Of a stretch of DNA of 64,000 nt, positions 34,045 through 48,035 are shown in pieces (positions within the stretch are counted from its first letter, which is position 1; every line of letters begins with the position of its first letter). The position numbers and the translations under genes are program-made. The notes under the pieces were generated by a model that did no database searches, was not told the origin of the DNA, and saw only the letters and a list, made by a program, of their open reading frames with translations. The DNA lies in the NCBI GenBank assembly GCA_913055805.1, contig CAJXLF010000003.1, positions 186,001 to 250,000 on the forward strand, in the 5' to 3' direction. This DNA comes from an uncultured Salinisphaerales bacterium (GTDB lineage: Bacteria; Pseudomonadota; Gammaproteobacteria; Nevskiales; CAJXLF01).

Positions 34045-34075
34045 ATCCACAGATTACACAGATTCTCACAGATTA
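34045..34075 (+). repeat. Third copy of the GxxExxY-cassette end sequence
   Basis: The 20 bp ATCCACAGATTACACAGATT at 34045-34064 are identical to the terminal repeats at 44937-44956 and 45349-45368, and the following TCACAGATTA also matches the left end of that cassette. No cassette gene or opposite end is found here, so this is a solo or left-over end. Confidence 0.9.
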
Positions 34076-43872: not shown

Positions 43873-44931
43873 ATGAGCGCTATCGACAAATCCCCGGAAC
43901 TGAATGCCTTGCTGGCCAGCCGCATCCTCATTCTCGATGGCGGCATGGGCACACAGATCCAGCAGCACAAGCTGGACGAAGCTGCCTATCGTGGCGAACG
44001 ATTCAAGGACTGGCCGCAGGATGTGAAAGGCAATAACGATCTGCTCACCCTGAGCCAGCCGGATATCATCCGCGACATCCACAAAGCCTACCTGCAAGCC
44101 GGCGCCGATATCGTCGAGACCAACACCTTCAACTCCACCTCCATTGCCCAGGCCGATTACGGCATGCAGGAGCTGGTATACGAACTCAACAAGCGCGGCT
44201 CCGAGCTGGCGCGGGAGGCCTGCGATGCCGTGGCCACGCCTGACAAGCCACGCTTCGTGGCCGGCGTGCTTGGCCCGACCAACCGCACGGCGTCCATTTC
44301 GCCGGACGTCAACGACCCCGGTTTCCGCAACGTCAGTTTCAATGAACTGGTCGAGAGCTATACCGAAGCGGTGGACGGCCTGCTGGCCGGCGGCGCGGAC
44401 ATTCTGCTGGTGGAAACCATCTTCGACACCCTCAACGCCAAGGCCGCCATCTTCGCCATTGAGAAATACTTCGACGATCACAACGTCAAGGTTCCGATCA
44501 TGATCAGCGGCACCATCACTGATGCCTCCGGCCGCACCCTGTCCGGCCAGACCACGGAAGCCTTCTACAACTCGCTGCGCCACGCCCGGCCCATGTTCTT
44601 TGGCCTGAACTGCGCACTGGGCCCGGATGCCCTGCGCCAGTACGTGGCCGAGCTGTCGCGCATCGCCGAATGCCATGTCACCGCCCACCCCAACGCCGGC
44701 CTGCCCAACGAATTCGGCGAATACGACCTGGGCCCGGAAGAAATGGCCGAACAGATCAGTGAATGGGCTGAGGCCGGCCTGCTGAACGTCATCGGCGGCT
44801 GCTGCGGCACCACGCCCGACCACATCCGCGCCATGGCCGAAGCAGTCAGTGGCAAAGCGCCCCGCAAGCTGCCTGAATTGAAGCCTGCGCTCAGACTATC
44901 CGGCCTGGAGCCATTCAACACGACGGCTTAG
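43873..44931 (+). CDS. metH: Cobalamin-dependent methionine synthase, homocysteine-binding part
   Basis: A 352-residue protein equal to the first domain of E. coli MetH. The three zinc ligands C247 (GLNCALG), C310 and C311 (GGCCGTT) even have the E. coli numbering. It activates homocysteine for methyl transfer. The protein ends at [13 protein letters not shown], exactly at the linker where full-length MetH continues into the folate domain. Split metH genes are known in several Proteobacteria. The partner half (45372-48035) lies beyond an inserted GxxExxY cassette. Confidence 0.92.
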
Positions 44932-44936
44932 TATTG

Positions 44937-44967
44937 ATCCACAGATTACACAGATTTCACAGATTAA
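44937..44967 (+). repeat. Left terminal repeat of the cassette
   Basis: The 20-bp repeat is followed by TCACAGATTAA, a partial second copy of the CACAGATT core, so the end contains three CACAGATT-like units. Confidence 0.85.
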
Positions 44968-44980
44968 TAATGAGAAGGAA

Positions 44981-45349
44981 ATGCACGACAGTGATCAGGA
45001 AACCTTTGCGGTTATAGGTGCAGCGATAGAGGTTCATAAGGAACTTGGATGTGGCTTTCTGGAACCGGTATATCAGGAAGCGATGGCACATGAATTAAGT
45101 CACAGGAGCATCCCTTTCCAAAGGGAGGTTCCGCTGAATATCAAGTACAAGGGAACCCTGTTGAAAACAGGCTACCGTGCAGATTTTGTTTGTTTCAATT
45201 CGACAATCGTTGAATTGAAGGCATTAACAAATCTGTCAGGAAATGAAGCAGCTCAGGTACTGAATTATCTGAAGGCCGCGAAACTGAAAAAGGCCTTACT
45301 GATTAACTTCGGAGAACGTAGCCTGCGCTATAAACGATTCATGAATTGA
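44981..45349 (+). CDS. GxxExxY protein (PD-(D/E)xK nuclease-like)
   Basis: A 122-residue protein with the name-giving motif G25-FLE-PV-Y31, then the nuclease-like residues D68 (YRADFVC) and E78-x-K80 (TIVELKA), and the conserved end LLINFGERSLRYKRF. The fold is that of PD-(D/E)xK enzymes, and the acids and lysine are all kept, but no biological role has been shown for the family to my knowledge. AAGGA is 5 nt before the ATG. The gene is more AT-rich than metH and uses different codons, indicating foreign origin. Confidence 0.9.
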   Translation: MHDSDQETFAVIGAAIEVHKELGCGFLEPVYQEAMAHELSHRSIPFQREVPLNIKYKGTLLKTGYRADFVCFNSTIVELKALTNLSGNEAAQVLNYLKAAKLKKALLINFGERSLRYKRFMN

Positions 45350-45368
45350 ATCTGTGTAATCTGTGGAT
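45349..45368 (-). repeat. Right terminal repeat of the cassette
   Basis: Exact inverted copy of the left 20 bp. It covers the last base of the GxxExxY stop codon and a GTG at 45363 that would add three residues to the downstream metH part; that GTG is not taken as the start. Confidence 0.9.
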
Positions 45369-45371
45369 GAT

Positions 45372-48035
<2,664 letters not shown>

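Follow-up and report, generated by a model that had tools for sequence, protein, structure and literature searches.

A GxxExxY gene and its flanking repeats, located between metH-N and metH-C in the 64,000-nucleotide stretch of DNA analysed here (hereafter, the window), probably represent a widespread two-part intragenomic system of the REPIN/RAYT kind, composed of GxxExxY genes with their own arrays and of gene-less elements, and built on a different enzyme. One part of this system would be the gene of a small nuclease of the Cas4/RecB-like PD-(D/E)xK type, present at low copy number and enclosed by inverted arrays in which three units of 8-10 bp are typical, and the other would be short, intergenic, gene-less elements carrying the same arrays as inverted pairs. 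Because the brackets are matched to the lineage of the gene and the same repeats are dispersed in the same genome, the gene seems to form the centre of a family of small, spreading DNA elements that had not been recognised. GxxExxY proteins (TIGR04256) occur in many phyla and have hitherto had no assigned function.

In the window, the GxxExxY gene (122 aa, 44981-45349, + strand) is enclosed by perfect 20-bp inverted repeats to form a 432-bp unit, with ATCCACAGATTACACAGATT present without mismatch at 44937-44956 (+) and 45349-45368 (-). This pair was matched in none of 100 dinucleotide-preserving shuffles of the window, even with 3 mismatches tolerated, and a chance origin of the inverted repeats was rejected by the window shuffles, a genome-wide reversed control and displaced-window controls. 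The initial annotation, made from the letters of the window, had placed the reading frame and the perfect pair correctly, both being far above chance by shuffles and profile matches. Its further remarks that the right repeat touches the stop codon and that the unit lacks a transposase were also borne out: the repeat shares the final base of the TGA codon (45347-45349), and no transposase gene was found between the two repeats. The description of the ends as 20-bp repeats held for the perfect pair and fell short of the full arms, since the left arm (44937-44965, +) consists of AT followed by three tandem 9-bp units, CCACAGATT-ACACAGATT-TCACAGATT, and the right arm (45349-45368, -) of two 9-bp units in inverted orientation. 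The insertion site is bordered on the left by the open reading frame of metH-N (43873-44931, +) and on the right by metH-C (45372-48035, +), for which an alternative GTG start at 45363 would fall within the right arm. MetH is encoded by two adjacent genes here (43873-48035) and in several families of the order, whereas family f2 has one long reading frame of over 1250 aa; the split occurs both with and without the GxxExxY element. The outer edges of the arms, e.g., TATCCACAG at 44936-44945, resemble a DnaA box (TTATCCACA), possibly by coincidence.

The protein matched the family profiles TIGR04256 (E 3e-42, 143.6 bits, cut-off 35) and PF13366 (E 6e-40, 136.6 bits, cut-off 22). Its conserved residues were located with alignment A1, all on the + strand: E28, the acidic residue of the GxxExxY motif (45062-45064); D68, the PD-(D/E)xK aspartate (45182-45184); E78-L79-K80, the ExK motif (45212-45220); and Q92 to Y96, the QxxxY motif (45254-45268). 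Across 54 aligned sequences, D68, K80, Q92 and Y96 were invariant, and E28 and E78 were near-invariant. The D..ExK..QxxxY set, and the name QxxxY itself, belong to RecB/Cas4-like nucleases. A confident minimal PD-(D/E)xK fold was predicted by AlphaFold2 (pLDDT 93.8), with Cas4 SSO0001 as the best fold match (Foldseek E 1e-4; VIA-align Z 9.9, rmsd 3.3, 98 aligned), followed in Foldseek by lambda and alkaline exonucleases, and with I-Bth0305I as a weak fold match; a sequence search of the PDB with the protein gave no hit. There are two cysteines, C24 and C71, so that the four-Cys Fe-S cluster of Cas4 proper is lacking. The gene is under purifying selection, with dN/dS of 0.02-0.16 in seven closely related pairs, in some of which dS was high; the values for L086/L095 and L081/L115 were left out because frameshifts or gaps spoil the pairing. 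Such strong selection fits a role in the host as well as it fits mobility.

The repeat is not confined to the metH site. Its 18-mer core was found 43 times in forward and 37 times in reverse orientation in the 3.38-Mb genome to which the window belongs (up to 2 mismatches), vs 0 in the reversed control, giving about 80 matches of CACAGATT. About 20 elements of approximately 70-430 bp have inverted ends made of tandem 9-mers (CCACAGATT-NCACAGATT-NCACAGATT) and are intergenic as far as can be judged from sequence; the only one with a GxxExxY gene is that of the window. Their interiors are mostly unrelated (7 of 19 share anything), unlike those of a classical MITE. A solitary arm of the same family is located in the window itself at 34045-34064 (+), followed by degenerate CAGATT copies and with no clear partner arm. 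REP-like palindromes of the GTCATTCCCGC..GGAATGAC kind were observed inside several CACAGATT-ended elements (L033, L038, L049 and L051), indicating a nesting of two repeat families. In this genome, the second GxxExxY gene (C10) is bracketed by arms built on a different unit, ACGCAAAGG. A lone cassette that jumped recently was not supported, in view of that second gene and its different repeat, of the presence of GxxExxY at the metH junction in three GTDB families and of purifying selection, and a cassette unique to metH was rejected on the basis of the genome-wide repeat family and of bracketed GxxExxY genes elsewhere.

The generality of the layout was assessed with 80 relatives from many phyla, chosen by protein similarity alone and not by repeats, and with a motif-free inverted-repeat score applied to 98 GxxExxY genes with enough flank on both sides (at least 12 phyla); the study in depth covered one host order. 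An inverted-repeat bracket was detected around 82 of the 98 genes, vs 0/88 and 0/86 for control windows shifted by 700 and 1000 bp, and around 19 of 28 genes in an independent phylum-wide sample of the family (controls, 0/24); arms were not detectable for the remaining 16 of the 98. The suggested cassette structure is real and general, being shared by GxxExxY genes of many phyla, with gene-less kin dispersed in the genome; an absence of repeats beside other GxxExxY genes, named beforehand as a ground for refuting the cassette proposal, was not what the survey showed. Within 250 bp of the gene the motif density was 3.4/kb, compared with 0.10/kb in the remainder of these loci, and the bracketed elements had a median size of 461 bp (5-95%, 414-589). 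Arms usually comprised three tandem units at 8-10-bp spacing with the core CRCNRA, the three-unit form being the commonest in the family. Within an arm the units are direct repeats, and inversion occurs only between the two arms, so that the arms are not palindromic REPs like those of REPIN/RAYT systems; terminal inverted repeats and dispersed copies, as in MITEs and insertion sequences, were both present. No GxxExxY relative was found in phage records or by a scan of IMG/VR, and eight hits were obtained in plasmid or chromid records. Two of five plasmid or chromid copies were bracketed (Bacteroides finegoldii and Sphingomonas parapaucimobilis); in a third, a short pair of 11 bp was seen. Across 64 element loci, no GxxExxY remnant was found inside a gene-less element, and the sole copy to score was the decayed one at the metH site of genome G013.

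The unit of the arms follows the lineage of the protein. When mapped on the protein tree, the repeat unit required 20 changes, compared with a mean of 46 after shuffling, and none of 200 shuffles was as low; AAAG genes form one clade (100/86), Salinisphaera AAAT genes another, and GATG genes largely one. Host relatedness may account for part of this clustering. Dispersed repeats of the AAAG class (CGCAAAG) were present in all eight genomes with an AAAG gene (5-92 sites each) and in 3 of 53 others (p=6e-8), those of the AAAT class in 4/5 genomes with an AAAT gene and 1/56 others (p=5e-5), and those of the GATT class in 5/8 genomes with a GATT gene and 3/33 others (p=0.003). The match of a gene class to its own dispersed repeat class, which characterizes REPIN/RAYT, was thus found for GxxExxY. 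Many arrays occur without a matching gene (GATT in G022 and G009; AAAG in G026, G340 and G357). In G009, 9-bp GATT ends enclose inner elements with 10-bp GATG-type ends (L191, L193, L194, L195 and L202); its own GxxExxY genes are of the GATG and AAAT types, and a GATT gene was not found there. Two arms of one element resemble each other no more closely than do arms taken from different elements of that genome, as is expected if the unit is set by a trans-acting factor. In comparisons across species, similarity was much higher for arms of one and the same gene-bearing element than for arms of other loci in that class. Such a pattern is consistent with a recogniser that acts in trans and whose preference depends on species and class, and it argues against an RNA stem.

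Size variation at the metH site, set beforehand as a test of the cassette proposal, was found, the junction being empty in several relatives; by family, the site is occupied in some and empty or decayed in others. Without the element, the distance from metH-N to metH-C is -2 nt in G008 and G016, in which the two genes overlap, 14-15 nt in G002, G011 and G015, and 22 nt in G021; it is 441-709 nt in the eight genomes with a GxxExxY gene and readable ends (G000, G003, G009, G012, G027, G029, G031 and G039). In G013 the gene is decayed and the right arm intact, and G019 retains an arm remnant. At the metH site of G031 and G339 (L163 and L164), the left arm is no longer detectable and the gene has a dN/dS of 0.15; a selected gene beside decayed arms hints at a role beyond its own brackets. 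The metH-site proteins are spread over several parts of the tree (7 changes) and their units differ, even among those of Salinisphaera, pointing to more than one event of insertion or replacement at metH; an origin in one clade was not rejected by the tree test (AU p 0.21).

Presence and absence were also observed at other sites. Two composite dispersed sites of 440 and 786 bp in Salinisphaera japonica (G009) correspond to 24 and 110 bp in G039, and an element lies between fabD and fabG in Sphingomonas parapaucimobilis, these genes adjoining directly, with no element, in S. paeninsulae and Sinorhizobium meliloti. In these empty sites (metH, Salinisphaera and Sphingomonas) the flanks are too divergent for the junctions to be placed, and a target-site duplication or an excision product is not demonstrable at this divergence of the compared genomes. 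Related gene-less families, in part nested and in tandem, were found in G005 and G009. At G005:C10:36356-37604 (L208), an element unit of about 250 bp is repeated five times head-to-tail, a recent local amplification.

GxxExxY might instead be a domesticated host nuclease for genome maintenance, repair or defence, with the arrays as its working or binding sites and not as mobile ends. The low dN/dS (down to 0.02), a position at the metH junction that is conserved in three families and the near absence from records of phages (0 hits) and plasmids (8 hits) would agree with such a nuclease, but it is an unlikely explanation of elements that one species has and another lacks at the homologous site, of a copy number that ranges within one genus from 0 to over 100 matches, and of inverted array pairs that bound gene-less DNA, the interiors being related in G005 and G009. 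Spread of the arrays by a RAYT or IS transposase unrelated to GxxExxY, which would then be a passenger, would account for arrays without a matching GxxExxY gene in some genomes and for the REP-like palindromes inside several elements; it is improbable, however, because the repeat unit changes with the GxxExxY clade, class-specific copies accompany class-specific genes, and a passenger would not be the sole gene within such ends across many phyla.

In size and layout the unit matches the 428-nt intervening sequence of Coxiella, which has inverted ends and tandem heptamers around an S23p ORF (PMC4990558); this raises the further alternative that the inverted ends work as an RNA stem cut by RNase III, as in intervening sequences of 23S rRNA, and that the protein is incidental. 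The studied elements, however, sit between protein genes and not in rRNA, mismatches between arms showed no excess of G-U over A-C (7/13, 24/40 and 36/39), and arm-to-arm matching within a genome was not above that between elements. Selection on an RNA stem was rejected on the last two grounds, no within-genome covariation of the arms being seen, and this alternative is very improbable as a whole. It is scarcely credible that the gene of the metH unit is old and was inherited vertically, with the repeats landing beside it independently: the tree test would allow a single origin of the metH copies (AU p 0.21), but properly oriented arms flank most GxxExxY genes at other sites in many phyla, and displaced controls gave none.

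In the favoured two-part system, GxxExxY would bind, on either side of an element, the arrays that belong to its class, at about one helical turn per unit, bring the ends together and nick or cut there; host repair and replication would then copy or move the element, and gene-less elements would be served in trans. The action of GxxExxY on the arrays is well supported by indirect evidence; that it binds and cleaves DNA, moves the elements and causes their spread is inferred. A bolder proposal, made tentatively, is that the lone Cas4/RecB-like nuclease itself recognises the inverted three-unit arrays and drives the copying of what lies between them, as a mobile element without transposase or integrase, in which the gene-less pairs would be non-autonomous kin and S23p/TIGR02436 a second lineage with another protein.

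In a search of the open literature, no description of this system was found, the abstracts and passages retrieved for GxxExxY, PF13366 and TIGR04256 being silent on repeats; the repeat strings themselves were found in open papers only within unrelated primers. If GxxExxY acts on the arrays, its function, DNA target and partner sequences would be known at once for each class. The two-part system, if true, would be a second one of the REPIN/RAYT kind, enzymatically unrelated to the first, would explain interspersed repeats of the CRCAGATT, CGCAAAG, CACAGAG and CACGAAG types in many environmental genomes, and would provide an example of mobile-like DNA that relies on a Cas4-like nuclease and has no integrase.

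Among known systems, the Cas4/RecB-like nucleases, including solo Cas4, share the fold and the D..ExK..QxxxY motif set, whereas GxxExxY has only about 120 aa, two cysteines and no adjoining Cas1 or helicase partner. The PD-(D/E)xK homing endonucleases I-Bth0305I and I-SspI are likewise small nucleases of the same superfamily and the sole gene of an inserted unit, but here there is no intron or intein and there are many gene-less copies. Inverted ends, dispersed gene-less copies and empty sites are shared with MITEs and insertion sequences, from which the present elements differ in having no transposase in the unit, no target-site duplication seen (the flanks being divergent) and ends of tandem units. 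The Coxiella intervening sequence has 428 nt, an S23p ORF, inverted ends and three tandem GACAGAT heptamers adjoining the ORF (PMC4990558). It resembles the window unit in its length of about 430 bp, its one small ORF (S23p/TIGR02436), inverted ends and short tandem units, and differs in protein fold, in units of 7 bp instead of 8-10 bp, and in its location in 23S rRNA with excision by RNase III, GxxExxY lying here between metH-N and metH-C. Six of 12 loci of TIGR02436 (S23p-type four-helix bundle) in this order (L176, L177, L179, L180, L181 and L185) have inverted brackets of tandem 7-bp units, of the GTGAGGC, CGGGACT and TAGTAGA types, and TIGR02436 may be another protein family with this element architecture. 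Of the systems described so far, the nearest is REPIN/RAYT, in which REP doublets are combined with REP-associated tyrosine transposases (PMC3116915). Shared with it are a low-copy, nuclease-like and mostly species-congruent gene that adjoins its own repeat class, intergenic dispersed inverted doublets, and several distinct classes of gene and repeat that seemingly co-evolve (PMC3116915). The REPIN/RAYT enzyme is an HUH/Y1 transposase and its ends are palindromic hairpins, whereas here the enzyme is of the PD-(D/E)xK type, the ends consist of tandem 8-10-bp units, and the gene itself is enclosed by the inverted ends.
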